A stretch of DNA of 64,000 bases. Origin: Kalaharituber pfeilii. Its lineage: Eukaryota > Ascomycota > Pezizomycetes > Pezizales > Pezizaceae. Location: NCBI GenBank assembly GCA_015179045.1, contig WHUZ01000002.1, forward strand, positions 186,001 to 250,000, read 5' to 3'. The first letter of the stretch is position 1, and each line of letters begins with the position of its first letter. A program made the translations under genes and the position numbers. This document shows, one piece after another, positions 11,153-58,940 of the stretch. Under the pieces are notes generated by a model. That model was not told the origin of the DNA. It made no database searches and worked only from the letters and a program-made list of their open reading frames with translations.

Positions 11153-11237
11153 GAGGACTTGCACCCGGCCCAGTTCTCGGCGAAAGCACCTGCAGCCTAT
11201 ACACATTCAGGGCCCATAATCAGTTCAGTCTCTGATG

Positions 11238-11254
11238 CGGCACGCGAGTAATGA

Positions 11255-11286
<32 letters not shown>
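11238..11286 (+). mobile_element. Family B micro-retroposon (20-nt body + A29)
   Basis: Perfect 13-bp target duplication tcagtctctgatg at 11225-11237 and 11287-11299. Between them is only a body of about 20 nt (starting CGGCACGCGAG) and a poly(A) run. This is the shortest body seen in the window. Confidence 0.9.
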
Positions 11287-11289
<3 letters not shown>

Positions 11290-11299
11290 GTCTCTGATG

Positions 11300-11920
11300 A
11301 TGGGAAGACATTTCCACTCCGGCAAGTAGTTGCACCACTGCGTCCTTCCCCCCTCGAAACCAGGCAACGACACGCCAGAGATCAATGGGATATTTATCGT
11401 GCACTCCCTCCGCATGAGAATACTGTTCCGGGGGACTACTAGCCTGAGGTTCGGCTGGAATCATGGAGACATGGGGACCTGTATAACCCTAAGTAGGGAA
11501 CAATAGGTCTAGGTAACCGTGAGTGTGTAAAAGAGATGAGACCTTAGCTTAATAGAGCTGGAGGTGATCAGTACAAATCGATGGTTTCGGTATGACATGG
11601 AGAAGTCGTATGCGCCACTCAGCTTGAATATTACAGGGGCAGACAGGGGAGACCATGGAGTTTAAAAGTGTTACTTGTATAGCTGTCTCTAATCTATGCT
11701 CGCGCGGGACTTTACCATAGTCGATTCAATTGCAGAGTGTTGCGGCATCTTCTCTCATATTGTTTATTATTTGTGCTTTGTATGTCTTCTTTGACAACAT
11801 ATATCTGCACTGATAGATCCATGGTGTGACTATGTCGGATTAAGGTAATCATTTTCGCTCCAACTCGCACTGAGGCTCCTGTAAACACATCGCGCTGCTC
11901 CTACCTATTATCATTAAAGG
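11300..11920. other. Intergenic, no supported gene
   Basis: No domain-bearing ORF, RNA gene or repeat recognised. Confidence 0.5.
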
Positions 11921-12609
11921 ATGTCAGAGAGCACCCAAGTTGACTCAACGTTGTGCACTATGTATGGAGGAAAACCAGCTACCAAGATCAGGAATCATGT
12001 TATGGGACATTTGCAGCAATTGGCGCAGTTTTCACTGCCACAGAGGGAGGATTTCGATGAGAGTGAGTAAGGCGAGAATCAGGATACGGATGGAAACGTG
12101 AGTGAGGCATCAGGTTTGGACAGAGACGAGGTCGACCCAGGCCAGCAACAATCCTCGTCCCTAGCCATGGTCAACAATACCGCATCGGCATTCTACAACG
12201 AAGGGCAGTATGAAAAGGCGCTGGAGTGGGGTAAGCAAGCGTTAGCTGAGGAAGAGAAGTCGCTGGGTATCGACCACCCCAACACTCTTACCATGGCCAG
12301 CAAAATAGCACATGTTTACGAAAATCAAGGGCAGTATTCCAGGGCACTGGAATGGTATGAGCGAGTATTGGCTGGACGAGAAAAGGCATTGGGCGCAGAC
12401 CACCCACCCACCCTTGATTCGGTTAAGAACATGGCATTGTTTTTCATCAACAAGGAAGAAATAAGAAGGCACTAGAGTTGTTCGAGCGAGCATTGGCTGC
12501 ACAAGAAAACGTACTGGGAGCAGACCACCCAAGCACCCTTAACACTGCCAAACGCATAGCCTCTCTATTCGATGAAATTGGGCGGTCCGATAAAGCCCAG
12601 CAGTTGTAA
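11921..12609 (+). pseudogene. TPR-repeat NLR-tail relic
   Basis: From ATG 11921 the frame encodes NHVMGHLQQLAQFSLP, a motif I associate with the region just before the repeats of fungal NACHT/NB-ARC proteins. It then meets TAA at 12068-12070. The same frame resumes and carries two kinesin-light-chain-type TPRs (YNEGQYEKALEWGKQAL, then YENQGQYSRALEWYERVL, each followed by LGxDHPxTL). At about 12460 the frame shifts. A third TPR (LFERALAAQENVLGADHP) continues in another frame to TAA at 12607. One stop plus one frameshift in under 700 bp makes this a decayed gene end, and no NACHT domain is seen upstream. An unannotated intron could explain the second break, but I saw no good splice pair. Confidence 0.65.
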
Positions 12610-12847
12610 GAGGGAGCATCTAAAGGGCGTTCTGACGGCAAATAAAGTAGATGCAACGAGGTGACAATATTATAGAAAAGACGCGGAACAGAGGCCACGA
12701 AAGATGGTTTGACAGTGACTAAAGATTCTGTGGCCCAATATAGCAACAGTTAACGTTCAAAACTCTGTGCAAGTAAGGTTTGTAGTAGTCTGGCTGGTTA
12801 GCCGCTGCTCAATTGACTGTGTGAGGAGAGTGATGTAGTTACAGATG

Positions 12848-12930
12848 TTTTTTTTTTTTTTAAAAGTATCTCAGTACCATATACCGCCTCGTGGGCTATG
12901 ATGAGATTAGATACAAAGGAATTAATAACA
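12848..12930 (-). mobile_element. Diverged family B insertion
   Basis: Oligo(T) at 12848-12861, then a diverged copy of the family-B unit (CCTCGTGGGCTATGATGAG) extended by TACAAAGGAA, an extension shared with the copy at 29574-29665. No clear target duplication. Confidence 0.5.
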
Positions 12931-13014
12931 AGGAAGAAAATCAGGAGAGGCAATTTTGATCAAAATAAAAAGTGCCGTCTTCTCCCATGTCACCTCCCTA
13001 CCCATCTCAACAGC

Positions 13015-13112
13015 TTTTTTTTTTTTTTTTTTTTTTATCACGTAATCCCGCTTATCGCTACTAGCTATGGCAGGGTCCATGGACAGAAGTCCTTATAGCC
13101 CGGAGACAGGCA
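13015..13112 (-). mobile_element. LINE 3' tail insertion (family A)
   Basis: Poly(T) 13015-13036, then the reverse complement of the last ~75 nt of the LINE 3' UTR (through GCCCGGAGACAGGC). An unrelated segment ending in A25 (13150-13174) follows, so poly(T) and poly(A) face each other here. Confidence 0.75.
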
Positions 13113-13186
13113 CCTGTGCAACTACCTCCAAAAGCGTCCCCAATAAAGCAAAAAAAAAAAAAAAAAAAAAAAAAGGAAACCCCATT

Positions 13187-13284
13187 TTTTTTTTTTTTTT
13201 TTTTTTTTTAATCACATAACCCCGCTTGTAGCACTTGGCCATGGCAGGGCCCCTGGGCAAGCCCTCATAGCCCGGAGACAGGCT
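13187..13284 (-). mobile_element. LINE 3' tail insertion (family A), 98 bp
   Basis: Flanked by a perfect duplication containing ggaaaccccatt (13172-13186 and 13285-13299; the first three As adjoin a poly(A) run). The body equals the last ~75 nt of the LINE plus poly(A), in reverse orientation. It is inserted next to the previous copy's A25 run. Confidence 0.88.
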
Positions 13285-13299
13285 AAAGGAAACCCCATT

Positions 13300-14040
13300 G
13301 TAATGAAGGCTCGAGAGCATCCACTGCCTTGCACAGGATACCGGCATCTAGAGCTGGCGGAACGAGGCTCCAAGGGTGGTCTCAATGGTCAAGTGTCAAG
13401 AACGATGTCATATGTTTGGCCTGTAGTATTCTCTGCAATGTCTGATCTATGTCTGTGTGTCCATGTCTGCCTATCTGTCTGTCTATCTGTCCATCCGATG
13501 ATGTCTCTGTACAGTCCTTGCTACATCCAATTTATAGACCACCTTCACCTTCCTATCAAATCTACACATCCACATCACGCTTCTTAAATATGAGCTCGCT
13601 TCCTCAACATATAAACACATCATCATATGCTCCTACCGATGAGTAGCGCTCCGGCCTACATTTACCCTTATTATTTCCATCGGTACTATGGTTATCATCA
13701 CACCACGACCTTCAGTGATGCAGAGGAAACAGTAAGTAGTCGACAAAAGCAGTTTTTCCAACGTCTCTGCACTTGTCATAGTAGCTTACCGGACCACCTC
13801 TTATTCATGCAACCAAGCGTTGTCATGTGACGAGCCTTTTGTGGAGCCAAGAGATTATTGGGGGCCTGATGTAATGTTAAATTCGAATTGTTCCTCCGTT
13901 TCATGATCAAGAAATCTACTGTTTGTAACACTGGATATCAGCGGACAGTTCTATCCCTACCGTGAAACGTACTGGTGAGTACTCCCAATAAACCTATTCA
14001 ATTGTGAGTTTGATTGTGAGAGAAGATACGAATAAAACAG
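13300..14040. other. Intergenic or upstream exons of the 14.0-14.5 kb gene
   Basis: Contains a short microsatellite (13449-13495, TGTC/TATC repeats). Possible coding scraps lie at about 13690-13735 (before a GTAAGT) and about 13925-13975 (before a GTGAGT). They could be earlier exons of the next gene, but the phases could not be joined. Confidence 0.35.
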
Positions 14041-14468
14041 AAACCAGTGTACAAGGTGATACCACATTCGGCAGATCCCAGTTGGTTTGATTTAGACGAC
14101 CTTGAAGACATGAGCATGCAGGAGTCAATGAGCTGGGTGCGTGATCAGATTAAAGGTTGCATGTTTGGTGTCTGATCCGACGGACATTTGATGGTACTTT
14201 ATTTTCTGACCAGAACAATACAGAGAACATAGCTTATCTTCAGTATATTAATTCTGAAGACCTGAATGACATCAGAGTTGTCACCACCCGGAATGAGCGA
14301 GGCCAGTGTAGGGCATTTGCAACTGCGCACTCATTTCTTGAAGTCTACACAAGTGACTGGGTTTCTGGTGGAACTCCAAAGGCACTCCTAGCACTGCTTG
14401 AGATGGTTGAGAAGGCTGCGGCAAAAAAGAAGGAGGAACAGGAGAAAGATTCTTGGTATGGGCTCTGA
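14041..14468 (+). CDS. Hypothetical protein, partial multi-exon model
   Basis: Two exons are supported: 14041-14136, reading through SWFDLDDLEDMSMQESMSW, and 14214-14468, reading from NNTENIAYLQY to a TGA. The intron 14137-14213 (77 bp) has donor GTGCGT, branch CTGAC and acceptor CCAG, and keeps phase. The first exon is preceded by ACAG at 14040, an acceptor for a further upstream intron, so the start is unknown. The C-terminal part ends in a Lys/Glu-rich helix (KAAAKKKEEQEKDS). I recognise no family; the regular splice signals are the main reason to call a gene. Confidence 0.4.
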
Positions 14469-16298
14469 GGTGTAGCAAACGAAGGGGCCTTGGGAAAAAA
14501 ACAGGCAGCGTGTAAATATTTGTTTCGTTGTTATCACATAAGAAGGACTTCGCGACAAGCTACCAATCTAGAGCTCAAACGATTTAATCAGTGAATTTCC
14601 CGGCGAAGCGCAGCAGCCTCAACAGTGGACATGACTCATCTTCAAAGCATTGTTGTATCCCTACACTTTTAGATAAGTAGCATATTCTCTGATTGCTCCG
14701 TTCTGCATGAGATATCCGATCAGCGAATGAAGCCAAAACCTGCGGCCACTGCCACTAGCCAGCTAGAAACCTTCGTCCTCCGCGAAGGCCGGCACCAGTC
14801 TCCCCGAGTTCGCTTTTGTTACACCCACATGTTTCACTCCACATGCAAGGTCTCATCGGAGGGGCTGACAGGTGAAGCTCCATGGTTCAAGCCCGTATGC
14901 TACATGTCTGTTTGAACTTCCATACAGTGCGAGGTAACACTAGTGTATCGGCCCAAGGACCATACATAGGGGGACCTGCACAGCATTCACAATAGCAGGA
15001 GAGCAATATAACTATTGAACATTTAAAATTATAAAATCTTTTATGCATCAGCAGGGAACCGAACCTGAATTTCCTTAATAACACTTGCATGCTGATACTG
15101 CACAACTAGCACGAGGTCTCATTCCCAGACATACTCACTTCACCGAATTCTGCCGGCCAATCTTTGCACTTCTGCAGTTTCTCCAGTTCCACTACAAGTG
15201 TTTCTTAGAGGGCCAGGCTGCCCTGGAGCTCAGTCGGTCGGCGCTGGAATCAGCGAGCCAGCGCTTAGGTCGAATTGAAGTATGCAGCTCAAACTTATAG
15301 AGAATCAACTGTATATATATAAATTAATTTTTAAGTACAATTCCTTCTTTTACTATCAAGCTCCATTGCTGCGTACCCAGGAAACTTAGGCTGTATTGAG
15401 GCTTTCAACTTGAACAGGTGCGGAGTACATTTTGTTGAGCATTTATGACGGTTTTTGAAGCAGTGGATCTGCCTTTGTCCCTTGTACAAGACATAGAACA
15501 CGCTGATGAACTATAGAGTTAGAGGATGCTTAAGTTACTACCTTGTGAGGGAGCAGGTCCTAGGGAGAGAACAAGCTGTCAACCTCAAGGTCCGCCGTAT
15601 TAGCGACTTGAGAGAATTCTGTGCTCCAAAATTTCGCCAACCAGCCTAGCAAATCTTCTAAAAACGTTGCAAATGAACCAGTGGAAAGACTTTTGACACA
15701 TTACTGTCGTGTGACAGATTTTATGTAGCCGAGCGGCCCGATTCTGTCAGCCGTTCCGGAGGAGATCGCCCAACTCTGAAGGGGGCAGATTTCCGACGGC
15801 ACACATATGTTCTGGCGAAGAATATTCAAGATGGTAAAAAAAAAAAAAGGTTCAAAAATCATTAACGAGAGGTCAAAGGTACATTGTGAGGATAAATGTT
15901 TTTTGGTTTTATTTTGACATGCGGCATGGGCATGGCAAGCGGTCCACAACGCAGTACGCAATGGAAGGGGAGTACACGAGGAAGCGCATGAGTTTCCTTT
16001 TTTTTCACAGAAGGCTTTATTTACAGTTTACTATATCCTATTTACTCATATTATCTTTGAATAATTATGGTCTCATCGTTACTAGGCAGGTCTTGGTTTT
16101 ACTGTGCCAAAACAATGAACATTACTCGATCTATGTAAGGCTTATGGTTACACCTTAGGGCTTTCAGGATCGTGTGTAGGGGAGAATACTCAGAAGCGCT
16201 ATGCATGCACCAAAGTGCAAAGTGAAGTAGGTATGACTTTTTGTCGAAAAGTCTTACAGAACTTTTGTATGGGATTTAGATATTGTTTAGCATAAAAT
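14469..16298. other. Intergenic, no supported gene
   Basis: Nothing recognised apart from an A12 run at about 15837-15848. Shadow ORFs only. Confidence 0.5.
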
Positions 16299-29573: not shown

Positions 29574-29609
<36 letters not shown>

Positions 29610-29665
29610 ATATCATTACTCGTATGCCGCCCTATTGGGCTGTGACGAGATTGATTACAAAGGAA
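29574..29665 (-). mobile_element. Family B insertion with long poly(T)
   Basis: Target duplication tgtggtattgtt (29562-29573) and tgcggtattgtt (29666-29677), 11 of 12 equal. T-run to 29608, then the family-B unit (ATCATTACTCG..GCCGCCC) with a 16-nt extension ending CAAAGGA. Confidence 0.88.
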
Positions 29666-30155: not shown

Positions 30156-30355
30156 TCCCAACTGGCTAGGCCGCCGACCGGGTCAAGGTTCCAGATGGGC
30201 CAGGCTGGCCTGGGCGGTTTCAGGCCGCCCAGGCTAGTCCAGGCCTCGCCATAGCCCATAGGGCACGCGAGTACTGATAATTAAAAAAAAAAAAAAAAAA
30301 AAAAAAATAGTCCAGGCCGCCCAGGCCGTCCGGACTAGTCCAGGCGGTGTGGTAG
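30156..30355. mobile_element. Single end of a hAT-like element
   Basis: Starts CAGTGTTCCCAACTGGC, almost the same as the TIR of the complete element at 30438-31338, and continues with CCAGGCC/GGCCTGG repeats to about 30346. No matching second end. A family-B micro-insertion splits it at 30246. Confidence 0.7.
30246..30307 (+). mobile_element. Family B micro-retroposon (37-nt body + A25)
   Basis: Perfect 11-bp target duplication tagtccaggcc (30235-30245, 30308-30318). Body TCGCCATAGCCC... GCGAGTACTGATAATT then poly(A). Inserted inside the CCAGGCC repeats of a hAT end. Confidence 0.93.
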
Positions 30356-31739: not shown

Positions 31740-32345
31740 GGTCGGCTGTGTCCCTGGGCCGCTTAAGCGATTCAGGGGTAGGAGGCCTGATTAAGAGGCT
31801 ATTCAGGGGGTCGCCTTCAGGTCAATTGGACATGGATATAATATAAGGCTCTCTGTATCCTCGGATAGCTATCTAGACTTTGTTTTATTGAGCAGCAGGT
31901 ACTTACTTCACGTAAGTAATTTTACTATCGCTTGACTGTCTACTAATTCCTTTTATTAGTACCGCATGGCAACAGACATTCCAACCACTGGTACCGGAGA
32001 AGACGATTCCTTTGGTTATCTTTCTTCACTCTCCATAGTGCAGTTCAACTTTTTGATCTTGCATCGACGCTTCCCTGCGGTCAATCTGATGGCTGAAATC
32101 GAGTCTCCTGGAATTTGGGCTACTAAAATCTGGTGCAATGTAGTTGGATTCCACAGTATGCTGAAGCTGTGCATGATTTTTTTTTTTTTTTTTTTTTTTT
32201 TAATATTTCACGTGACCCCGCGTGCAGCTGTTCGCCATGGCAGGACAAGCTGTGCATGATAATGGAAAGTGATACTGGCGGTGCAAAATTTGCAAGCAAA
32301 ATCCTAAACGTTCGAGAATGAGGTAGACGTAGCGGTTAGAGTACG
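31740..32345 (+). pseudogene. Second copy of the hAT internal region (BED-like N-terminus)
   Basis: Collinear with about 30640-31160 of the complete hAT element, including the same intron (donor GTAAGT, acceptor TTATTAG at about 31960). The ATG 31966 opens a frame starting MATDIPTTGTGEDD. A LINE-tail insertion at 32178 breaks it. Without the insertion the frame would run into the Cys-containing BED-like segment. No terminal repeats remain. Confidence 0.7.
32178..32246 (-). mobile_element. Family A micro-retroposon (about 45-nt body)
   Basis: Perfect 14-bp target duplication aagctgtgcatgat (32164-32177, 32247-32260). Poly(T) then only the last ~45 nt of the LINE (up to GTTCGCCATGGCAGGA). The collinear hAT copy at about 31055-31065 (gatgtgcatggctaatgg) shows the empty site. 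Confidence 0.95.
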
Positions 32346-32659: not shown

Positions 32660-33686
32660 GTGGCTCAAGGGACAATGATGGGAAACACAGAAAAAGACAC
32701 GGCACGGAAACACTGAGACACGGAGATCACGGATCTGGTATTCACTGAGGTTTCCTTTTTTTTTTTACAGAAACGGAGCAGAAGGGCCTCTCAAAAAGTC
32801 CCCCAGAAGCACTAACTAATTACATGAGAATGTCATATGCAAACGAGGACCAGTGTTTGCTTCCTCCTCTTCGTTGTACCCATGCCGTTTGCTGTTTGCT
32901 CTATGCATGCCATTTCATGTATTCCTCCCACAGCTCTAAGCCATGTTCTCCAGCAGCTAATGGAATTTTTGAGAACTGTATGAGCGTGGGGCGCGCTACA
33001 CCTAACTCCACTACTCTGTGCACCGGGTTTTCTGCTGGGAGGTCGCTGGGCAATGGAGGAGTATCAGGTAGTTGAATGGAGAAGATTACTGAGCATGAGC
33101 GAAAATTGTTTGATTGTATAGCAAGTGCAGAAACCACTACCAGAAAGACATAACTGTAGAAAGGTAGAAGGTAATGGAAAACGAGTATGAGCACATGAAT
33201 AAACAGTGAATAGGGATGAGAAATGAAGATGAATATGAAAGATGAAGAAAGTAGAAAGAATGCCCTTCTTATAACCAGTTTGTGCAGCATCTCCATGCTG
33301 CTGGACTTACCCTCACCATGTGTATGTAACCCAGCATTGCCTATATCACCATACGATCCTCGTGACCTGCGACGTCTGAGCCCAGCGTCCGCACGGTAGT
33401 AGGAGCTTAGGCGCGCTGCCTACCACACTGTCCATTGGTTCGAAGTTTGGTCTTCTCATTTGGTCTTCTATACATTGGTCAATGTGGGTAATCACATCTC
33501 ACTGCTTCAAGCATAATAGTCAAATTGACTCCACCGAGTCTTTCGCCGATAGACTTGAGTAGTGAGGCCTCAAGACGGGTACTTTTGGCAAGCAGGTTGG
33601 TAGCCTGTATGCGGGGTTAACAGACAAAAAAAAATTTTGACAAAACAAAAAAAAAACACACACAAAAAAAAAAAGCCTGGTTGATG
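32660..33686. other. Intergenic; one doubtful minus-strand ORF
   Basis: An ORF at 33296-32901 (minus) has a very hydrophobic first half and a more protein-like second half (LPAENPVHRVVELG, AAGEHGLELWEEYM). It may be the exon of a small gene, but I saw no confirming splice sites and do not call it. A-rich runs occur at about 33620-33675. Confidence 0.35.
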
Positions 33687-33696
33687 GTATACTACG

Positions 33697-33698
<2 letters not shown>

Positions 33699-33734
<36 letters not shown>

Positions 33735-33767
33735 TTACTCGCGTGCCGCCCTAGGGGCTATGGCGAG
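33699..33767 (-). mobile_element. Family B micro-retroposon (39-nt body + T30)
   Basis: Perfect 12-bp target duplication gtatactacgtc (33687-33698, 33768-33779). Body is the canonical unit, read here in reverse (ATTACTCGCG, GCCGCCC, GGGCTATGGCGAG). Confidence 0.95.
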
Positions 33768-33960
33768 GTATACTACGTCCAATTCTTATCCGTTGATCAA
33801 TTTACCTCACAGAAAGCTCACAATCTTCATATGCCAACATGCTTAAGTTGAGCTCGTGCTTGATGCGAGCAAGCAATGATTCAACAGTATAGACTTATAA
33901 TCAACGCAGCCTTCCCCCAGGTAAATATAATATTCCAGAATCTTGTACTCATGCCACGGT

Positions 33961-35815: not shown

Positions 35816-36249
35816 TTAATAGTCCTGGATATTTCCACTATCAGTAATTGACAGTCGCCCATTAGGTATCATCATTAAAGAATTGAGTCCCATCTGTTGT
35901 ATTGTCTGGAAGGACCGTCATTTCTAAAATATTTGTTAGTATATATACTTGAATATGAAGTGTGAAACATACTTTTTTTTTTTTTTTTTTTTTTTTTTTA
36001 TTAATATCATTACTCATGTGCCACCCTGTCGACTATGGTGAGGATTTAGGTATGTGATACATACTTGACTAAAGTCGTAGACCGCTGTTGTTTAAAATTC
36101 TAACTATATGGAAGATTCTACTCATTTAAATACTCAAATAATCTGGTAAACGCTGGCTGGTTGGCCTGATTGTATCAGGCTGCCGGGCCGGTCCAGGCCA
36201 GTCCAGGCCTTCTGTTGGCCTGGCCTGGCCTGGCCTGTTGGATTCATTG
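35816..36249. mobile_element. Truncated copy of the CAATGAATCC hAT-like family
   Basis: Collinear with 50176-50201 plus 50851-51336 of the element at 49182-51336, and lacks the PIF-like insertion there (empty site TATCAGTAATTG at about 35839). It ends in GGCCTGG repeats and the terminal motif CCTGTTGGATTCATTG at 36249. A family-B unit is inserted at 35975. Confidence 0.75.
35975..36052 (-). mobile_element. Family B insertion with paralogous empty site
   Basis: Duplication tgtgaaacatactt (35961-35974) and tgtgatacatactt (36053-36066), 13 of 14 equal. The related element at about 50967-50982 has the uninterrupted sequence tgtgatacatacttg, confirming what was inserted. Confidence 0.92.
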
Positions 36250-36422
36250 AATTGTCATCACTTGGTTATTTCTTTTCCTTCTTCGCCTTTGTTATTCCTT
36301 TTACTTCCTCATGTACTTAATCTCACCATAGCCCAAAGTGTAGTATACGAGTAATGATATACGGGGTCACCGGGTGGAAGACGCAAAAAATGCGAAAAAT
36401 GCAATGCGCATGTGTCGCAGTC

Positions 36423-38054
36423 TTTTTTTTTTTTTTTTTTTTTTAAAATCACATAACCCCGCTTGTAGCACGTGGCCATGGCAGGGTCCCTGGGCAAGCC
36501 CTCGAAGCCCGGAGACAGGCTTAACAAACAAAGAAATTTCTATCTACTTCTACCACCTGATTCCAGAAACCTCCGGACGGACCTCCCGGTTTCTGCCTCA
36601 GGGAGGCTCCACTATATATCTCCCCTCCCCCCCCCTCCCCTCTTCTCCACACTTTCGCACCCCGGCAAGCAAACTTCCCCGACAGCAAACCGCACGGCGC
36701 CCTAGAACCTGATCCCGGAGAAGAACCTTTCCAACTCATCCCACTCCTCCCCATTCTCTGCTGTCCTTTTCCAGTTCTTCTCCATATCCCCCCATTCTCT
36801 AAAGCCTTCTGGGCGAAACCTCTGCTGACTGCACTGGAAGGCTAGGTGCGCCCCCGTCTGGGCCTCCCCGCAGCTGCACTTCTCCGATTCTGCCACTCCC
36901 ATCCTCTTTAACCACACCCTGCATCTTCCTCTCTCCAGTCGCAATGCTGTGAAGTTGGACACCGCTGTCCTATTCCACTCCATTACTTTCCCCCTCCCGA
37001 AACCTTCCACCTCCCTCCTCTCCTTCCTCCACGCCTTAATCCTCTGGCGCACCCCGCTCCCGGTGGCCACCTCTTTCCCTTCCACCGCCGTCCCCTTCTT
37101 TGCCCACTCATCAGCCTTCTCATTCCCTGCAATTCCGATATGAGCCTTGACCCACATCAGTTTCGCGTCCCCTCCCTTCTTCTTTCTCCTCGCCACGGCA
37201 TCCACCACTCTCCTCACATCCTCGGTTTTTCCCTTTCCCTCCCTGCCTGCCTTCTGGATCGCCATGATGGCAGCCTCAGAGTCTAAACAGATCAGTACAG
37301 GGACCTCCTCCTCTACACTCTCCAGCGCCTTTCTCACTCCCCTCACCTCCCCATCGAAAACCGTCGCCGTTCTCCCCACCACCTCCGCCACCGCTGCCGA
37401 CCTCCCCCACACTCCTGCTCCCACCTTGCTGTCCTCGATCTTGCTGCCGTCGGAGAAAAGGACCGCCCTTTCTCTTCCAGCTTCCCCGATCGCGACTTCC
37501 CACTCCCCCCTCGTCTCCACTTCTCCTTTCCGCCTCTCCACCACTTCCACCTGCCCCTTCTCACACTTCCCCCCCCACGAGATCTCCTCCCCCTCTTCTG
37601 AGAACCTAGACCACTGGCTCTGCCAGCGGTCCAACACCGCCTCATACCCGTCTTCTCTCCCCAGTGCCCACTGCACCCCCCAGTCCTTCCAGCCCCTCGC
37701 TTCCTCTTCCCTCTCCTCATTCCCCGGCCTGAAGTCCGTCGTGCATAGCTCCGCTAGCTCCGACGGTGCTTCCACTTCCCGGACGATCGCCCTCGCCTGC
37801 GCCCCGTCCAGGACCGCCTCCACGTCCTCCACCCCACACACCGCACTCACCCCTCCTACCCCCGCTCCTCTCCCTCCTCCAGCCGCCTTCTTCAACACCT
37901 GCAGCTGGACTCTCTCCATCTCCTTCCTCCATTCCTTCTGTCCCCTCCACCCGATCTCGCTTCCCCACATTGCAACCGCCCTCACCATTCCCGTGTAGGC
38001 TTGCCTCCAGCTGCGTGGAGACATCCCCCAGTTCCGGTTGCCCAGTCGACACAA
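36423..38054 (-). mobile_element. 5'-truncated Tad-like LINE
   Basis: Read on the minus strand: the end of the RT region, RNase H, a C-terminal zinc motif, a 3' UTR and a tail of 22 A. The 3' UTR defines family A and matches the tails at 1, 13187, 26588 and 41746. The 5' break at about 38054 falls inside a dispersed repeat also seen at 2618-2770. A short cagtc is shared at both borders, too little to be sure of a target duplication. Confidence 0.9.
36702..38054 (-). pseudogene. LINE RT C-terminus and RNase H (open but 5'-truncated)
   Basis: 450 codons without a stop. The first ~90 residues are the RT thumb-like tail typical of Tad/I-clade elements (SWRQAYTGMVRAVAMWGSEI). RNase H follows with its acidic residues visible: D in LFSDGSKIED, E in DGEVRGVRKAL, D in LICLDSEAA, and a late AGNEKADEWAKKG. 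A C-terminal zinc-like motif, CSCGEAQTGAHLAFQC, closes the protein about 70 codons before the TAG. The RT catalytic domain and ORF1 are absent, so the copy cannot move alone. The intact frame and long A-tail suggest recent insertion. The first Met at 38054 is accidental. Confidence 0.9.
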
Positions 38055-39660
38055 TAGCTATATGAGCTACGTAGAAGACTAGCGAGCATCACTAGTCAAG
38101 TGTCTTTTGGCCTGGCGGGGGTAATTCTCTGCGTTTACCACCTCCGTTACAGAGTAGAGATAATGGAGAAGCTGAGTTTTGTTATTATTTTACGTCCCCG
38201 ACGGTGCCTGGCTATTGCACTTTTTCCGGGACTATACGCGGCATAAGCTTTACAGAGGAAACGGGGTTTCCCCCTTAGTCACAAAACTTGCTATACTTAC
38301 TTAGCATAAGCAACAGAGGATATATTGAGATGCAAAGACCTCAGGTAATCTCATTCATATATGGTGACTCAAAAGTATATAGAATATGGTTGCATATCTT
38401 CCAGTATATGTCACCCCCTATGTGCTACAAACTGGGAAAAGAAAGTGTGGAAAATAATTTACTATGTCCTCTCATGCTCTGGCTTTAATTTGAGCCCACT
38501 TGAGTGTCATTTGCATTCACAGCAGCTCTGTATGTAGGTTTATGGATTTGATCAGTTTCCCGGTGATGATCGGTTTCTAGGTGAAGCACTCTAAATGCTT
38601 TCACGGTAAATGGTGTGAATTTGTCGAAGTTTTTTTTTTATATCGTTACTCGCATGCCGCCCTAAGGGCAATGGCAAGTAAAGTAAAGAGAAAAAAGTGC
38701 AGAGGAGTAGTAAGAGGATGACTTAGAGAGAGAAAATCGGTAATTTTCTTTTCTCTATTTTTTTTTGCATTCTTTTCAGCTTTTTTGAGCGCTTTCGATG
38801 CAATGATTCTCTCTATATAGGTACTTCTTGTAAGAATGCAACTTCTTCACCCCCGGTCAATGAGCTAAACCTCACAGGGGCAAAAATTCAACCTTCCTCG
38901 TAGGGCTAAAATTCAAGATGCTAAACAGAAACGGATGTCGAAGGGGCGTCAGAGGGGATAAAAGGGTTTGTATTCCACTGGAGGGTGTAGATAGTAGATG
39001 TAGAAAGCAGAGCTCCCAAGATAACCGAGCGAGCGAAATAACTCTCTTCTCTCCACAAACTTTTAGACTTCTTATTGATAAGCTTATTCTTACTTCATAG
39101 CCTCGTCCCTGTGGTTCTCGCTCAAAATAATTCATTGCTTACTAACCAAGCTACTAGTGTTTCACGTGCCCCAGGACTAAAGCCCGCCTGGGGACGAGGC
39201 TATATTCTTACAGGCTTAGTGCGACGACCAGTTCCTTGCGTTGAGCCTTCGTTCAATATAAGAATTGACTAAGCAGAAAACATAATATTTCTCATATCAA
39301 ATATATTCTGATGTTGGATATGCTAGTATCGAGAATGTACTGTACTTGTCCAACCGACACCAGCATGCAATGCTGCCGACCTACTTACCTTTTGGTGCAA
39401 CCGATCTAGTCAAAGGATATTAGATCGGTTAGTTGCCATCCACGACATTTATATTTGTACGTATGCAAAGGGAAAGTTCTCGAAATTGTTCAGTTTCATC
39501 GAGATCTATATACACATCACATGTTGCAAGCCCAGATTACGCCGTGTGCAATATGACCCAATCTCCACATACCATAATAATTGAGCTCCCTGGATTCCAA
39601 AACCATTATAATTCTTCACAATGAAAAGGCTTCATGACCACGCTTGAATATCATCCCTTA
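38055..39660. other. Intergenic with repeat fragments
   Basis: 38055-38125 is a copy of the dispersed repeat at 2698-2770. About 38425-38500 resembles 22650-22720. A family-B unit sits at 38631. No gene. Confidence 0.5.
38631..38679 (-). mobile_element. Family B micro-retroposon
   Basis: T10 then ATATCGTTACTCGCATGCCGC and CCCTAAGGGCAATGGCAAGT, a full unit with the usual boundary. The flanks give only a few matching bases (aagt), so the duplication is uncertain. Confidence 0.75.
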
Positions 39661-39675: not shown

Positions 39676-39702
39676 TGTAGAGCGGCACACTAGTAATGAT
39701 AT

Positions 39703-39744
<42 letters not shown>
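39676..39744 (+). mobile_element. Family B insertion with (CA)n and A32 tail
   Basis: Body AGCGGCACACTAGTAATGATATA followed by a short CA run and poly(A) to 39744. The A-tail ends two bases before the stop codon of the minus-strand ORF at 39747. The duplication is not clear. Confidence 0.7.
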
Positions 39745-43554: not shown

Positions 43555-44928
43555 CTGATCACCTTGTCAATAAAAGCCCTAGTGGCCGGATCTTGAATAC
43601 AATCCCTCCCGCTCTGTTCTCCACTGGAATTCTAGCTGTATCCCCAACCATAGTGCACCCGTTACACCGCTCGCCTCCAGCAATGAGTCATGACTGATGG
43701 GCGCCTGTGCCCTATTGCAACGGCCAGTAATCATACTCAAAAGGATAAACGGAACGCGTCGTGCTGTGTCACTGAAAGCTCGGCCAACATTCAGGAGTGC
43801 TATGACACTACTACTTAGAGGTAACACCAATGCATCGTCACTAGGTCGTAGGCGGTACAGCTGCAGCTGGTGGCCGCGAACAAGCTTGAAGCGGGATCTC
43901 TCCAGACAGACGTTCGCGCAGACTGCCAAAAACTGGAGAAACTGGCGCTAAAGGGCGCTAACCTGCTGCTAATAGACCACTAATAAACTTGACTATCAGT
44001 AATACAAGGCTTCAACTACTCGTCATAGCCCTCAGGGCGACAAACGAGTAATGATATTCAAGAGGCTTCAACTAATAGACTATCCCAACTGTACATGTAC
44101 GAATGAAGAATGTTTTACTGTGTCCTCAAGGTCGCTACGGACGTCACGCACTCACAGTGGCATATTCTACCAAATTACTCATTGCCTCTCATGCACCGAG
44201 CTATACTCACGAAACATGCTTTTCTGTACCCTGCAGGACCTGAAGATCATGCATTTGAGATATATTTTTACTAAACGAGTTCAGGATTTTATCAATATCC
44301 TAAGTGACCCATTAGTCTAGACTCTAGTCTCTAGATCTATAGTCCCGCGTCAATTTGCCCTTGCAGGATGACCCAGCACACTATTTCAGCGTAGGCTCAA
44401 AGGAAAAGCTGTTACTCGTATTTTGGCGTTTGGTGGGAGCTGAAATGGCAAAGCGAACTACATGAAAGCTAGGGTCGAAATAGGGAGCTGGCCAATGAAA
44501 CTCAAGACTGCATCATAATATCCTCTAAGGCAACAGCATAAAGAGTTCCTGTATCACAATCCTGTCAATCCTGGCATGTACTTATACGTAGATACGATTC
44601 CATACAATTACGTCCATCGAACTCCATTAGCGGTTGCATACCCTGTAATGTCCTTTCGCGGTTCATTAGTGGCAATTAGCGCCAGTTACTGCAGTTCCGG
44701 ACTTGTGAAAGATCGCGAGCTTCGTGGCTAGGAGTTTCGAACAGGTCAGAGACGAGACTCATGCAAAGTTAGTGGTTTTGAGACATTGGTCAGGATGAAT
44801 GTGGAGAAGGAAGGATTGAGAAATTGTTCCGACTAATGGGGCAATGAGCTTTCCACTAGATCAAACTTCAAACTATTGCCCCTTGTCCTTCTCATCATCG
44901 ACATTTCTAGCCTTTCTCTGACTGTGGC
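43555..44928. other. Intergenic with one micro-insertion
   Basis: No gene called. It includes the family-B unit at 44019-44062 and probably the 3' UTR of the kinase gene at its right end. Confidence 0.45.
44019..44062 (+). mobile_element. Family B unit without poly(A)
   Basis: Perfect 12-bp duplication aggcttcaacta (44007-44018, 44063-44074) around exactly 44 bp: CTCGTCATAGCCCTCAGGGC... GAGTAATGATATTCAAG. The only copy lacking an A-run. Either the tail was lost or it was never needed. Confidence 0.92.
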
Positions 44929-46927: not shown

Positions 46928-46999
46928 GTCTCTATAGCTCAGTGGTAGAGCGAAAGATTGCAGATCTTTAGGTCACTCGTTCGATCCGGGTTAGGGACT
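46928..46999 (+). tRNA. tRNA-Cys(GCA)
   Basis: A 72-nt cloverleaf without intron. The acceptor stem GTCTCTA pairs with TAGGGAC with one G-U. D-arm is GCTC/GAGC. The anticodon arm AAAGA-TTGCAGA-TCTTT has anticodon GCA. The T-arm ACTCG-TTCGATC-CGGGT has the TTCGATC loop. Box A (TAGCTCAGTGG) and box B (GTTCGATCC) are standard. The discriminator base is T, as expected for Cys. Confidence 0.96.
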
Positions 47000-49207: not shown

Positions 49208-49814
49208 CTTGCAGCTGCCATACTCTTGGGAAGATCCTTCTATTGAGCAGGTTAGTATCATGTGAAGCAGAATATAAGGGGCGAATAACTTACATCAGAC
49301 ATTCCTGGGGCTTGGGAACAAACAGCATTTGAACTTCAAGCTTGCCGATCTTGTATGGAGGTCGCCTAGCAGGATTACCACCTCGCTTGCTCTTCAGGCT
49401 GTTTAAGTCGATCACCCATTCGTTAAAGCAGTTAATTTCGGTCACGAAAGGTCTTCCATATACCTTGTACTCAAAATCTTTCAAGCAAACATAGGACCTA
49501 GCGAAACTTCCATCCCTTGCAACGACATCGCCATAGCCCATAGGGCGGCATGCGATTAATGAAATAAAAAAAAAAAAAAAAAAATCCCTTGCAACGAGCC
49601 CATTAAGCAGCTCCCATGCACTTAGTGGTTCTTCGGATTGTTGCTTCTGAGCTTGTGCTTGAGCCTGTTGCTGTTGCAATAATTGTAGTTGCTGCTGTTC
49701 CCTTTGCTTCTCAAGTTCTTTGCGCTTTTTCGAAATGAACACACGACTAAATGTTGACTTCGTCTTACTTGTAGTGGTAGCTTTTGGAGCGGGAGGAGGC
49801 GGAGTTGGAGGTGC
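49208..49814 (-). pseudogene. Captured fragment of an anillin/Bud4-like gene
   Basis: On the minus strand the frame from about 49814 reads a Pro/Lys-rich start, FISKKRKELEKQRE, a Gln-rich coiled coil, then SAWELLNGLVARD, GSFARSYVCLKDFEYKVYGR and PPYKIGKLEVQMLFVPKP. I associate this with the segment before the PH domain of fungal Bud4/anillin-type cytokinesis proteins. A GTAAGT follows at about 49291, an ACTAAC branch and TAG acceptor at about 49240, and then DLPKSMAAA, as expected for the next exon, although my reading loses phase by one base. An intron kept in the copy means capture at DNA level. Both edges of the fragment abut CCAGGCC units. The family assignment is from memory. Confidence 0.6.
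49526..49584 (+). mobile_element. Family B micro-retroposon inside the captured exon
   Basis: Perfect 13-14 bp duplication around tcccttgcaacga (49512-49525, 49585-49597). A canonical body (CGCCATAGCCCATAGGGCGG...) plus about 20 A. Insert plus duplication is 72 bp, a multiple of three, and adds 24 residues including a Phe run without a stop. Confidence 0.95.
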
Positions 49815-50847: not shown

Positions 50848-51642
50848 AGTAATTGACAGTTGCGCATCAGGTATCATTATCGAAGAATTGAGTCCAGTCT
50901 GGTGTATGATCTGGAAGGTCCATCATTTCTAAAATATTTCTTAGTATATATACTTGAATACAAAGTGTGATACATACTTGACAAAAGTCGTAGACCGCTG
51001 CTGTTTAAAATTCTAGACATATGGGAGATTCTACTCATTTAAATACTCAAACAATCTGGTAAATGCTGGCCTCAATTCACCTGGATAACTGTGGAGTGAT
51101 TCGTTTGATTGGCCTGAACCGGCCTGAATGGCCTGAACCGGCCTGATTGGCCTGGACCGGCCTGGTTGGCCTGGACCGGCCTGATTGGCCTGATTGTTTC
51201 AGGCCGCCTGGACCGGTCCAGGCGGCCCTCACGGCCTGGCCTGATTGTTCAGGCCAGGCCAGGCCCAGGATTTCACGGTCCAGGCCAGTCCAGGCCTCCG
51301 GTTGGCCTGGCCTGGCCTGGCCTGTTGGATTCATTGAATTGAATATTATCATCATTACATATGGTATTATGCACTTTGCTATGCAATCTATAGACAAGTA
51401 TTTTGGCTGCTAATAGCCAACAAATCCACTGTTGCCGGCTACCTATAGGCAGCTAACTAGTTGCCGGTTACAGCCCGCCTGGTTCGAGATCCTGAGTTGC
51501 TACAGTCTGTCACCACAGAACCACCTGCCCTCATATAAGGAATACAGCGATAACCCGAATTGTTCTTGGGTACGTAGGCACACAATGTGAAAAGAATGTA
51601 GAGAGAGTGGTTACTATTTAGTTAACCAGTGCAGAACTCGTT

Positions 51643-51697
51643 TTTTTTTTTATATATATCATTACTCGCTTGCCGCTCGTTTGGCTATGGCGAGGTT
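51643..51697 (-). mobile_element. Family B micro-retroposon
   Basis: T-run at 51641-51651, then the unit in reverse (ATCATTACTCGCTTGCCGC, GGCTATGGCGAGG). The flanks aactcgtt and agctcgtt share 7 of 8 bases, a probable short duplication. Confidence 0.8.
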
Positions 51698-52828: not shown

Positions 52829-52829
52829 G

Positions 52830-55489
52830 TCCCAGTCTCGCTATAGAAAACGGTCTCCAATTGGAATTTGTGCTATGGTATCCGGGGCGTGTGGGTAGTA
52901 AAGTTAGCGTCGACTATGATGGGATTGTGGTGAAGTTAATGCGGTCTTTTAGATCGCGTGGATATATAGGGTAGGATAGAGATCTAGATCTAGGAGAGGC
53001 AGCTACCCAGCTATGGTGAGGTTGCTGCAGGGTAGAGAAGCAGTCTCTTAGGCAAAAGTATTTTTTTTCTTAACAGGATGTGCACGTGATTGCAACGAAA
53101 ATATTAGTCCGGTTTGGCAGTGTGCCTGCAATTGCAATAGAACTTCTGAGAATGAAAATTGTATAATTTTGGGGTGCAATGTGGTAAAAAAACAGATGCT
53201 ATATTAATCAGTGACCCCATTAGGCCCCCCCCAAGAGGCTCAACACCCCTTCCAAATCAATTCCGAGCTGTCCTGCTACTGTACATCGTAATCGCACTGT
53301 ACAGAACGCCTACCTATCTATCTCCAATTCCGCGTTCCCCCAAAAATCCCGATTTCCAAAAAAATCCATCTGGAAAATTCCATATAGAAACATGAAGGTC
53401 TAAGGACTCTAGTATCATAGCAATAAGGACCTTTAGAGAGTTTTTTGTATTATTCACTCGTCTTTGTTTATATTTTCCCTATTTGTTGTCCGTATCCTTT
53501 TCCTGTGCCCAAGGTACTGTATATATATTTCTTCGTTCTCTAATAGCCTCTATGTTTTTGATTTTATTTATTTTTTCTTATTTGCGACAATGCTATGGCG
53601 GGGTATTTGATGTGAGACCCCACTTTGTCTGTAGGGAATAGCATCGCGAAACACATAGCTAAGGACAGCCTTTGATTCAGTGGCCGGAAACAATAGTCGC
53701 ATGCCAAGCAAATTCTGTCTCTAGCGCTGCTTCAACTTTGGCCTGACTCCTCCAGCGACTTCTGATTCCGATTGAGGGAAGGTCCTTGTATCAAGAGTAG
53801 GGTGTTTGAAAGGCCAAACTCTGGTCCTAATCTTCCATCGGCCCTCCTGCTCTCCAATCTCCCTTCCTTTTCGGGTTCTCTCTGTCAACGAACTACTTTA
53901 GTCTGGTTGCAAGAACCACTTCAGCCATTGCCAAGCCAACCCCAGCTGGTTCCGAATGGGAGGCGTAGGAGTGGCCGCCCCTCCCTACCAGCAGTTCTAG
54001 TGCAACAGAATTCAATTCCGAGGCTCCGCCACTGCTTTAGAGAAGCTAGGCAAAACCAGTGACAGTCCGTTGATCACGACTTCGGGGGCAACATGATAAT
54101 CGATCATTGTTGGAACCGGAGCATTACGGTCCCTCTTTGAGAAAAAGATGCTGGACTACCCGTGTTCCCTGGCCCAAAATCGAACTAGGCCCTCAATTCT
54201 ATCTCTCCATGTCCTCACCATAACATTATAAGCTCCACTAGAGGCAACAGACAAACTACTTCACCAAGATATTGGTAATATTATTACTTGAAAAAGGCTC
54301 ACAAAGTAAAAGTGAGAGCCTAAGAAATTAAAAGAGATCTTTTAGAAGGAGAGTTAAAAAAAAAATAACAGGAGTATTGGTGGATCCGGACTCATAACCT
54401 GAAATCAGTTTCCTTGCGTGTGTTATGATGATGGGAGTATGGGAGGAACCTCCAGCACATGAGAGTATGAATACCTGCCGAATTCAGCACCAGCAGCAGA
54501 TTAGGGATGTGCAGGGTACTAACAGAGTACTAACTATCCACCAAGTAACCATTAGAAGGAAAAGGTAAGAGAGCTGGTCATTCTGCATCCTTAACAGCTT
54601 GGAAGCTCGAGGGTACCTTGCAGCTCCGACTCCGTTTTAGCTGCGATGGAAAATCGATGAGCGCAGGCTTCTAAACTCTTTACGTTTAACAAGGCTTCGC
54701 AGTTCGGGCAGCAAACCTCTACGCGTGCTCTTATAACCAATGGCTCTCCATCACCTCTCCCAACTGCAGTTCTCGACAGCCTGTTTGACGGCCCCTCCCA
54801 CCTCCGAGAGCCCCCCACGAGAGTCCCTTCGCCTCTTTTCTGCCTTTCCTACCGCCTCTCCAACTGCTCCTCTAACTGCTCCTCCGACTGCTTCTCCGCC
54901 CATACCCTCCCATCACCTCTCTATAGCCTTCCCGACCGTTTCACCCACCACTTTCCAACTGCCTCTTCCCCCCCCCTCCCACCGCCGTCTCTCGCATCTC
55001 CCTCTCTCTCGCCTCCACCTCTCCTACCACCCCCCGTATCGTCCCTCTGATATCCTCTCCCACGGCACCTCTGATAGTCTCATTGACATCCTCTCCCACC
55101 CCTTCATCTCCTGTCCCCCTTCTACCCCTACTCCCGTCGATTGCATAGCGTTAACATATAGCAGTATTGACGAAAAGATAGGACCATTGCGACTGTGACA
55201 GCATATTCAAGGCCAACAACTTGAAGGCGCTCATCTCCGCCTCACCCACTTCCTCCCTTCCCGCTTCCTTCACTCGCATACCTCCCTTTCCTCTCTGCGT
55301 CTCCTCAGATGGGACACAACTTATTTCTTGGTAGGTCGACTATTTGCTTTTTTTTGATTCCTCATATTGTTTTGTCCGATGGTTTATTCTTTTTCCTTAT
55401 TCCTATTAGCTAGCATTTAGAGAATTTATGCCAATCGATGGCATCTTCATTATCAGCGTCAGGGCGGCTTGGGTACACGGGGGTTCTAA
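52830..55489. other. Intergenic, no supported gene
   Basis: Includes a strand-asymmetric, C/T-rich low-complexity stretch (about 54770-55130) whose Pro/Ser/Thr-rich frame I do not call a gene. Nothing else recognised. Confidence 0.45.
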
Positions 55490-55857
55490 AACGGACCAGG
55501 TTTAGAACATGGTCGGCGGAGGAATGCTTTCTGGGTTGGGAGTGAATTCCAAGGCGAGTAGTGTTGTTCCTCTTAGAAACAAGCAAAGAACTCTTGTGGG
55601 TATAGGGGGTTGTGGATGCATGGAGCTTCAGACCAGGTCTGTAAAGAGGTCGGTAGAGGAACCTCATTGAGTTGGTTGTCAATTTTGAAGCAAAGGGGGG
55701 TCCACTTCCTAACAAGCAACTTATGGGTATGGGGCTTCAGATGGACCAGATCTCTAATATGGTTGGTGGAGGAAAGCCTAGCCAAGTTGGGTTCTGAATT
55801 CGAAGCGAGAGGAGCTGTTACCCTCTTTAACAACATGCAAGTGACTTGCGAGTACTA
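55490..55857. repeat. Three diverged tandem repeats of about 110-130 bp
   Basis: Each unit starts near GGT(C/T)GG(C/T)(A/G)GAGGAA, continues through GGGT/GAATT and AACAAGCAA, and ends at GGGCTTCAGA(T)..ACCAG. Starts are near 55511, 55649 and 55759. Both strands have open frames across the units, but without splice or start evidence. Confidence 0.6.
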
Positions 55858-57379
55858 GTATCCTGTATTTACAACTAGACGACGCAGACGACGTTCTCCC
55901 GTCGCAAATTCTTCGACGAAAACTGACGGCCGAGGGAGCATATATCTCAACCACCACAACAGAATTTCTATGTGCTTTTGTAGTGAAACTATAGCAAATG
56001 TTGTTCCTCATATATGGTTCTTTTGTTTCCCCCCCCTTAAAAAGAGCAGTTTTCAAGGAATTATAGCGCAGCGGATTTTCGCATGATCTATTTGTTTGGA
56101 ATCCCTATACAAAATATTAATATACACCCCTATCTATCAACGCATGGCCATAAAATCTTTGATAAAAGGGCATTTTAAAGAGTATATTACAATGCAGTAC
56201 TTCCTTGAATTTAAGTTTGACTAACTGCATGGTTGATGTTTGAAAATTCAGTCTTGGGTGTTTTGTACTTATTGGATATTTTTTGTATGAGAATATGAAT
56301 ATTGTAAATAAGCACACAAACATATCAGGTAACACTCTACGGATCTTCTTGTACTTTGTTATGGGTGAAGTTATGGCATTTGTGTGCCCTAGTCGTTTCA
56401 TTAAGTTTTATCGTCGGTCTGTATGCAAAAAAAAACTATACCGGTGATAATGGGTGGAAAACTTAAAAGAATACATTGAGCCATGTTTCCTTGAAAATGA
56501 CAAACAACTATGAGGAAGCAGAATTGTGCGTCAGTATTGGTTTAGCCCCCTTGCAAGGCGCATACAAAATTTTGTTCCAGTGGTTGAAGATAGATACTCT
56601 CCTCGGTCGTCAGTTTCGTTGTAGAGCGTGCATCGGGTAGTGGTGTTACGTCGTATCCTGGTGAAATGCAATGCAGGGGTTGTGAACACGCTAGGGTTGT
56701 GGCATACATGAGCTTCTGCTCCGTACCATGGTTGCGTTATTGATGGCTGACTTATTTTTGCGTATGTTTTAGACATCTCGGCGGCGAAGTATGGAAGGTA
56801 AATAGGAATACCGGTAGGAATGGTGTTGGGTGGACGGCAGGAGGAAATGTCCGGATCCGGAGTGAACAAAGTGGAGTAGACTCAACTCTCCGTTGCCAGT
56901 TTATTGTACATGTAAAATGCAGAATAGCCGACCATGCGTAGACAGCAACGGTATGGCCACTAAAGAGAATCACAAAGCCTATTTAAAATACACTTTCTTA
57001 AAGATCTCGTTATCACTCAAATGGGAAACTGAAATAAGTTAAGGTGCTTCAAATCTGAAACTCCGAGTTTGTTACAGTTGGGTCTATAATCGCGATATCC
57101 TGATAAAAGTCTAGTTTGAATGCGCTATTGAAGAATAGTATCATAAAGCAACGATGATGGTGAAAATTATGTGCACAGATTACTCCTGTATACTTAAATC
57201 TAAGATGATGTCCCTTGCAACTGCGCCGATGGAAGTGTCACGTGTCTTATAGCTTTCATGAAATAGAAAGTGTCAGGTTGCAGTCTCGAGCCTCAGTTTT
57301 GTCCGGAAACATAGTCGGGGCTCTTGGGAGAGCATACGCCCGCCACCAACCTGCCCGAGGGCCTGGCAGCAGCTGCTCC
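55858..57379. other. Intergenic, no supported gene
   Basis: Nothing recognised on either strand. Confidence 0.45.
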
Positions 57380-58760
57380 GCTCCGCCCCGCTGGTCCACC
57401 AACCCGCACCACTGCCTCGTCCCACCTTCTCCCACCAATCCCTCCAATCACTTCTTCAGCAGCAGCTCCAGCAACCACTCTGACGGCGCTGCCAGCAGCT
57501 TCCCCTCCTCCCTCCATCAGCTTTCCTCTCCCTCGCTTCCCCCTCCACAGAGCCGTCAGCAACAACCACTTCGACAGGACGAGCGTTTGAAAGCGACACC
57601 GCAACCACAACGTTTCCCCCAGCGATACCCACACAGATCGAAAGCTGTCAGCGCACTGAGTCTTCTGATCTAATTTTTACTCCAAAATATCCGACTCCTC
57701 AAGTCTCCCCCTCGGGGTGAAGTTTCGAGGAGATTTCCAGCTCCCGCTTCGTTGCTAACACATCAACCCAGCGTTAAGAACCAATAAGAGGCCCCGAGCA
57801 TCCGCCAGCCACCAATAGAAATGCCGGGGAAAAAGAGACACGTCCTCCCCGTCCCCAACGGGAGCCCTTACCACGGAGGGATGAAGACATAAATGACGAA
57901 CTGGAGGCACTGAGATGCAGGGACCTGGAGGCGCAGATAGCCAGGAGAAGGGACCCCCGCCAGTTCCCTCCCGAAGTCGCGGTTTGTCCTCGGGTACCTA
58001 CCCCCCATCCCAAAGTTCGTCCCCAAAAAGGCGCCCACACTGGGGTTCAGCCCCATCACCACCATACACGACACCAGTGGAACCCACCCCCGAAGCCCTA
58101 GGCTTCAGCACAATAGTCACCGTGCATTCGGAGGAGCTATCCCAGAACAAAGCACAGAGACCGCACCAACCCCCAGAGTCACGCCGACATCCATCCCGGG
58201 GCCCGCAACCAAGAAGCGAAAAGGCAAGATGGCGTCAGCTCAAGACCCGTACGCTTTCAAGCGACGGCTCAGCGACAAGGAGGCAAAGAACGTTGCCACT
58301 GCGCCCACGGGCCCCCCACCAGAAAAACAAACCCAGGTGCGACCCCAGTCACCCAACACGCTGACAGCACCCCCGTTAGCAACACCCCCCCACCAAACGC
58401 ACCCCCTCCCCCCGCGCTCGGGGCAAAGGAAGCGACGAGGAGAAAAGCGCCCCTCCAACCAAGCCCACCGCTGCCACCACTACTACGGAGTTACAAAGTC
58501 CGGCATCGTGGTACACGGCATAGCCCTGAGAAAGAACTTGGAAAATGTCCGAAAATGGCTGGAATCAGCCAACAAAGGCTTGGGACAAGTTGTTGGGATC
58601 CGATGGCTGAAAAAAAAAAGAGATTCTCGTCGAGGAGGGGAAGCTCACCAGCTCGGTTGTAATATACTTGGAGGAGCAAATCGAGCCTACACCAGGTAGA
58701 GTGAGACTGGGAGGAAAATGGCTAAAGTCATGCGAGTATGAATGGGACAGAAGACGGACT
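57380..58760 (+). pseudogene. LINE ORF1 (gag-like) relic
   Basis: Broken frames read as a fungal LINE ORF1. There is a long Pro/Ser/Thr-rich N-terminus, an acidic-basic helix (DEDINDELEALRCRDLEAQI, about 57882) and a Pro-rich linker. The conserved core VVHGIALRKNLENVRKWLES follows, then VGIRWLKKK (about 58500-58620). After the A-run at 58609-58619 the frame slips, and the expected continuation (SVVIYLEE...RLGGKWL) lies in another frame. Several other shifts are present. No RT follows. Because most LINE copies here are 3' fragments, this internal or 5' fragment is unusual and probably came from a rearranged full-length copy. Kinship with the family-A LINE is not shown. Confidence 0.6.
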
Positions 58761-58884
58761 TGACCGGCTTAAGCCTTTTCCTTTTTCCTTTGCCTGTAAT
58801 ACAGAGACAGCCATGGGCAGCACAGGAGACGGAATTTTTCTGGGTTGTTTCCTTGTATTTCTAATGTACCTTAAATCGCCATAG

Positions 58885-58940
58885 CTCTTAGGGCGGCATG
58901 CGATTAATGATATTAATAAAAAAAAAATAAAAAAAAAAAG
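58885..58940 (+). mobile_element. Family B micro-retroposon
   Basis: ATCGCCATAGCTCTTAGGGC, GATTAATGATATTAAT then an A-run broken by one T. The usual boundary (ATCGCCATAG); no clear duplication. Confidence 0.75.

Follow-up and report, generated by a model that had tools for sequence, protein, structure and literature searches.

How does a unit of about 40 nucleotides come to be inserted again and again in a genome with nearly the same 5' end? The question is raised by a stretch of 64,000 nucleotides (G000:C112:186001-250000, hereafter the window) from the desert truffle Kalaharituber pfeilii (Pezizales; assembly of 78.0 Mb in 360 contigs), in which a first-pass annotation had listed eleven sites with a tiny, usually poly(A)-tailed hairpin, here called family B. 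It had proposed that they are a discrete mobile unit with a near-fixed 5' end, presumably copied by the machinery of long interspersed nuclear elements (LINEs). On balance, and with some reserve, we favour the view that hairpin-only copies, or solos, are made by LINE machinery from a template of hairpin plus poly(A) that begins at the hairpin base, probably because the RNA has been trimmed.

All eleven sites carry the motif or a decayed form of it: GGGCGGCANGCGAGTAATGATAT is matched at up to three mismatches by ten of them, against 0 in 100 shuffles, and the eleventh, at 30246, has by our reading lost three nucleotides (GGC). Target-site duplications (TSDs), which had been claimed for six sites, were found at seven (11238, 29574, 30246, 33699, 35975, 44019 and 49526), are 11-14 nt long and have one mismatch in two cases. 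Four of these seven insertions start at the base of the hairpin. They are the solos at 30235..30318 (+; hairpin without the 3 nt, A25, 11-nt TSD TAGTCCAGGCC), 33686..33779 (-; A30, 13-nt TSD GACGTAGTATACC), 44007..44074 (+; 39-nt body at 44019-44057, 12-nt TSD AGGCTTCAACTA, with TCAAG in place of poly(A)) and 49512..49597 (+; a subfamily with an A-U stem, ATCGC..GCGAT, and a 14-nt TSD ATCCCTTGCAACGA). The copies at 29574..29664 (-; 13-nt TSD, one mismatch) and 35973..36052 (-; 14-nt TSD, one mismatch) begin about 16 and 10 nt further upstream, and that at 11225..11299 (+) begins inside the hairpin, with a 20-nt body (11238-11257), A29 and a 13-nt TSD on both sides. No TSD of score at least 10 within 160 nt was found for the hairpins at 38631..38678 (-) and 51643..51694 (-), for a 3' half followed by (AC)n and poly(A) at 39676..39744 (+), or for the hairpin at 58875..58940 (+), whose upstream sequence is LINE-like (TGTACCTTAA).

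The pattern was followed beyond the window. Genome-wide, 9,000 sites match the family B 3' arm with no more than three mismatches (control 0), and 5,450 match the 5' arm, TCGCCATAGCCC, exactly (control 2). Individual copies were studied in a 331,388-base sample, which merges into 42 stretches and comprises the window, 20 segments of 10 kb, a 4-kb segment and 30 loci around perfect copies; here an exact mismatch scan at up to four mismatches gave 111 family B copies (reversed control 0), 108 of which were examined and three left out for short flanks. With a TSD accepted at a score of at least 10 within 160 nt, and mismatched pairings as the null, duplications accompany 44 of the 108 copies against 8 of 2,137 pairings. 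Counting upstream from GGCGGC, where 14-21 nt corresponds to the base of the outer stem, the bodies of these 44 copies start at 14-21 nt in 22 cases, at 0-3 nt in six, at 10 nt in one (C2:152512; by eye it, too, begins at the hairpin base, and some bases of its loop are missing) and at 27-145 nt in 15. The peak at the hairpin base departs strongly from ends spread uniformly over 0-145 nt (P = 1e-16) and persists within 0-40 nt, where it holds 22 of 32 starts (P = 2e-9). The first-pass claim that most copies share a near-fixed 5' end is thus borne out as a peak, although "most" was generous for the window, with its four of seven.

Ordinary random 5' truncation of LINEs, with the hairpin end enriched by chance or detection bias, would account for the longer and shorter truncations outside the peak, and the 5' ends are indeed a mixture in which a scattered background accompanies the sharp maximum, rather than the continuous spread that would have spoken against a defined unit. 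We nevertheless regard this explanation as very improbable, given the P values in family B and the similar one in family A described below. Nor does the choice of loci create the peak, which retains 16 of 33 TSD-defined copies once the 30 seed copies are removed. A scan independent of the hairpin agrees: among 218 poly(A) tracts of at least 9 with enough flank, 47 have a TSD of score 11 within 220 nt (null rate 0.46%), and the bodies measure 37-55 nt in 31 of them, with eight shorter and eight longer. By reading, 44 of the 47 contain a hairpin, namely family B, whole or in part, in 32 and a second family in 12; the other three (C2:310564, C13:1004066 and C2:347023) have none or are indeterminable, and the match at C1:309493 is possibly due only to a neighbouring copy.

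The family B RNA is predicted to fold into a 5-bp outer stem, an asymmetric internal loop and a 4-bp inner stem, in line with the double stem already suggested from the window. Among 78 distinct copies pairing is kept in 94.6% of cells, and two-sided changes in the stem occupy 28 cells against 6.6 in shuffles, mainly C-G to A-U at positions 1-30 (15) and C-G to U-A at 13-17 (9). Family B therefore has the conserved 3' hairpin with compensatory changes that characterizes stringent-type LINEs. The CATA/GGCA internal loop is almost invariant and the apical loop variable, as expected for a protein-bound hairpin. Pairing is equally good in another inner register (4-6 with 21-23), but covariation is lower there. 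With ribosum scoring, RNAalifold returns the expected fold, and 50 of the 78 sequences fold in this way singly. At one locus (L026, about 1,425-1,523) the hairpin carries an inserted segment that itself appears capable of forming a stem (AGTCTCAT...ATGAGACT).

A search for a longer parent with the unit at its 3' end succeeded. At L016 the GGCGGC of a family B hairpin follows, at a distance of 89 nt, the end of an open reading frame (ORF) that encodes an RNase H domain (PF00075, 1.6e-15), and at L018 and L022 the hairpin is preceded by a gag-like ORF with no Pfam match, which probably belongs to non-autonomous LINE derivatives. The family B hairpin is the 3' terminus both of LINEs with an RNase H domain and of gag-type elements. 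We presume these LINEs to be Tad1- or I-like. Since the hairpin also ends longer LINEs, the family B unit derives from LINE 3' ends, of which it keeps the hairpin only, and the proposal of a discrete, independent unit stands insofar as hairpin-only copies exist but fails insofar as the same sequence terminates longer elements. Protein matches of the LINE ORF2 end are to K. pfeilii in 11 of 13 cases, the other two being weak. The loci L021:153-686:-, L004 and L018 share a 3' module, RWLRT..YE.DRGRK followed by the hairpin, which is joined to an ORF2-like or a gag-like frame; this suggests template switching or recombination between elements. L051 was considered as a parent and discarded, as the long frame downstream of its RVT_1 match (C13:1350784) was read by eye as that of a Gypsy-type long terminal repeat (LTR) element, in a 4-kb stretch without a family B copy. 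Of the 64 sampled family B copies without an accepted TSD, 31 have the motif TGTANNTA upstream, six an AATAAA-like sequence, and 27 are unplaced. The TGTANNTA motif, with a possible role in polyadenylation or RNA binding, lies 0-7 nt 5' of TCGCCATAGCCC in 1,547 of the 5,450 exact 5' arms.

A second family repeats the pattern with another sequence. Family A consists of (G)CCCTGCCATGGCGAACAGCTGCANGCGGGGTCACGTGA followed by poly(A), with an outer stem, an internal loop and an inner stem shaped like those of family B, and has 3,216 genome-wide matches at up to three mismatches (control 0). In the sample, 38 copies were examined out of 40 matches at the same threshold (control 3); TSDs flank 14 of the 38 (null 1/371), and 13 of these 14 begin at the hairpin base (P = 9e-17). 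In the window the family is represented by solos at 32177..32246 (-; GTCCTGCCATGGCGAACAGCTGCACGCGGGGTCACGTGA plus poly(A), TSD ATCATGCACAGCTT) and 59454..59549 (+; TSD GACCTACAATTGTGC), by a hairpin with a longer LINE-type body at 13185..13284 (-; TSD AATGGGGTTTCCTTT), and by an A-type hairpin (near 36466) with poly(A) at 36420..36487 (-), which lies downstream of a LINE ORF2 fragment with an RNase H domain at 36702..38054 (-; PF00075, 6.7e-12), thus stands at a LINE 3' end and has no TSD within 160 nt. Several of the 11 long forms of family A that were aligned have a common upstream sequence. The boundary is best seen in exact copies, a pattern that keeps only those with an intact 5' arm. The 1,856 exact genome-wide copies of CCTGCCATGGCGAACAGC are preceded by G in 1,405 (76%), and these in turn by a further G in only 324 (23%), near base composition (G is 22% in the window); the parental GGGG precedes 163 exact copies. 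Conservation in these exact copies thus reaches one base 5' of the stem and is at background at the next.

Could such a boundary be that of a dedicated transcript, an ultra-short short interspersed nuclear element (SINE) whose 40-nt hairpin RNA comes from a locus with a promoter outside the unit? The one-base boundary would suit it, as would the GCGAACAGCT-type copies of family A: 11 of the 14 in the sample are TSD-defined solos (three lack an accepted TSD), the long-form upstream sequence is absent from all 14, and five of six further loci look solo, with visible TSDs. However, the sixth (L057) is a long form, and together with the 163 exact copies with GGGG it shows that the same subfamily has long LINE forms; additional parents with a different upstream sequence may exist as well. 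In family B the solos stem from more than one stem subfamily, so this explanation would need several source genes. At the window units there is no Rfam match at the gathering threshold, and hence no tRNA, 5S or 7SL match, and by inspection there is no B box, the unit being too small for internal A and B boxes. The only Rfam match in the window, a tRNA-Cys at 46928, lies away from the units, and an origin from a tRNA or another known non-coding RNA was discarded. We consider a dedicated transcript unlikely.

That the copies are retroposed, poly(A)-tailed insertions is supported by their TSDs and by empty sites. The insertion at window 35975 is missing from paralogous repeats at window 50860-51090 and on C1; three paralogous sites of the family A solo at 32177-32246 are empty; and the family A solo at C13:1215120 sits in a copia-like gene whose relative in the window lacks it. 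Three insertions, across both families, are verified in this way. For C2:311663 the genome-wide search for an empty site returned four matches, of which two were the site itself and none crossed the junction; in the sample only one distant paralog (71%) crosses it. The target preference of short copies resembles that of longer ones. Directly 5' of the TSD stands C or T in 30 of the 35 short copies and in 10 of the 12 longer ones, and the TSD opens with A in 21 and 6 of them, respectively (one of the 35 short copies, C112:199229, is actually longer). These signs are in keeping with the involvement of LINE machinery.

The mechanism we propose is target-primed reverse transcription by the machinery of LINEs whose RNAs end in the hairpin and then poly(A). 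The hairpin would be the recognition element of the reverse transcriptase, as in stringent-type LINEs. Decay of a LINE RNA from the 5' side would halt at the hairpin gripped by the enzyme and leave a protected footprint, and in many of the events the reverse transcriptase would copy this footprint, hairpin plus poly(A) only. Such RNAs would begin at GCCCTGCCATGG or 0-3 nt from CTCGCC and end in poly(A). Our results suggest that a recognition hairpin and poly(A) may suffice as a template for copying and insertion. The same boundary could also arise by abortive reverse transcription, in which the full LINE RNA is the template and the hairpin-anchored enzyme lets go after copying, and thereby melting, the hairpin; the cDNA, complete only to the hairpin base, would then be joined to the target, with no need for a short RNA. 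5' truncation is commonly ascribed to such abortion (PMC2104539). Abortion accounts for the like behaviour of both hairpin families and for the clustering of ends at the base of the outer stem and in the apical loop, where copying dissolves a helix. On the other hand, the one-nucleotide sharpness over more than 1,000 family A copies exceeds what we would expect of dissociation, and a nearly one-base boundary on that scale fits a template end better than an enzyme stop. In addition, a few family A solos (L052, L054, L056, C1:380089 and C13:1218656) have by eye 1-3 bases between TSD and hairpin that fit neither the TSD nor the parental G run, which is what template run-off would leave. Abortive reverse transcription seems to us less likely, yet it is the main alternative and must be taken seriously because the apical-loop cluster fits it at least as well.

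Several observations weigh against trimming of the template as we favour it. Half of the TSD-defined family B copies (22 of 44) lie outside the peak, and the smaller cluster of six at 0-3 nt before GGCGGC, in the apical loop, means that exonuclease trimming alone is insufficient. For a quarter of the family B copies (27 of 108) no TSD was accepted and no upstream sequence recognised; some of them carry a variant LINE motif (for example window 58892) and others resemble solos with decayed duplications. Long forms of family A are not rare, since CCCAGGGG, a parental sequence, plus hairpin gives 811 matches at up to three mismatches, some of them chance upstream matches, and the related long-form pattern GGGCTTGCCCAGGGACCCTGCCATGGC gives 817 at up to two. 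With default settings RNAalifold finds no consensus pairs for all 78 family B sequences. Finally, recognition of the hairpin by the reverse transcriptase is argued by analogy with other stringent LINEs, and a discrete polyadenylated template of 40 nt is postulated from the genome sequence.

Among known systems, the closest are the stringent-type LINEs (UnaL2, SART1 and plant L1 elements with 3' hairpins), whose conserved, covarying 3' hairpin is shared with short non-autonomous copies, and in which poly(A) is compatible with stringent recognition (PMC3747384 and PMC5135761). The fungal Mg-SINE and SINE2-1_BG, as described there, are tRNA-derived with a LINE tail at the 3' end, whereas the K. 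pfeilii solos have no head and consist of the tail hairpin alone, some 40 nt in length; they have in common with SINEs the LINE-shared 3' end and the TSDs. With 5'-truncated LINE copies, whose members measure 100-1,000 bp according to the review PMC3747384, the solos share the 3' end, poly(A), TSDs and a like target preference; they differ in the concentration of their 5' ends at a single structural point, where truncated copies would have them scattered along the element, though half of the family B ends do form a scattered background. Mammalian tailless retropseudogenes, mentioned in the same review, are likewise short retroposed pieces of RNA, but the solos have poly(A) and a LINE 3'-end origin. 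The MINE chimeras of Magnaporthe also involve truncated fungal LINE 3' ends and template events at preferred sites; according to PMC2104539, however, MINEs gain 1.1 kb of foreign RNA at the 5' end, and the solos gain nothing. An origin as miniature inverted-repeat transposable elements was rejected: these have terminal inverted repeats, a TSD of fixed length and no poly(A), whereas nearly all TSD-defined copies here have poly(A) and their TSD matches run from 10 to 18 nt. The solos are best read as a variation on the stringent LINE/SINE theme without a visible promoter.

To our knowledge, the solos are shorter than any known SINE, and if our reading is right, their template of roughly 40 nt plus poly(A) is smaller than any natural LINE template known to us. 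In the titles and abstract openings of the open-access literature we found no report of hairpin-only LINE copies, and exact 3'-arm searches of the viral_contigs and genome_contigs collections, which did not extend to eukaryote relatives, gave no match. A more speculative extension, which we hold only tentatively, is that the solos exemplify a promoterless class of reverse-transcriptase footprint retroposons, in which the body is the RNA protected by the LINE enzyme and any hairpin-ending transcript could be trimmed to the same 40 nt and re-inserted. A solo in a transcribed gene could then seed new solos with no need for a dedicated source gene. If the template is indeed protected by the enzyme, a genome sequence by itself would reveal the RNA that is likely held by a stringent LINE enzyme, and two causes of 5' truncation, enzyme stop and template end, would become separable. 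Because a single genome offers more than 1,000 copies with a boundary of nearly one nucleotide, the question is directly testable.

The hairpin copies are strongly compartmented on C1 and C13. Among the matches listed, 63 of 73 exact TCGCCATAGCCC sites on C1 fall within the first 0.55 of its 2.99 Mb, and on C13 perfect 3' arms end at 112 kb and restart at 1,149 kb, with diverged copies in between. Elsewhere in the window, 60030-62606 (-) is occupied by a long ORF of ankyrin repeats, whose 102-nt units resemble one another (86% matches), and which adjoins a NACHT/NPHP3_N ORF at 62579-63190. A copia-type element with two ORFs (gag/integrase and RVT_2) at 4365-9020 (+) is flanked by 30-nt tandem repeats, at 4137 and 9338, that have their unit in common.

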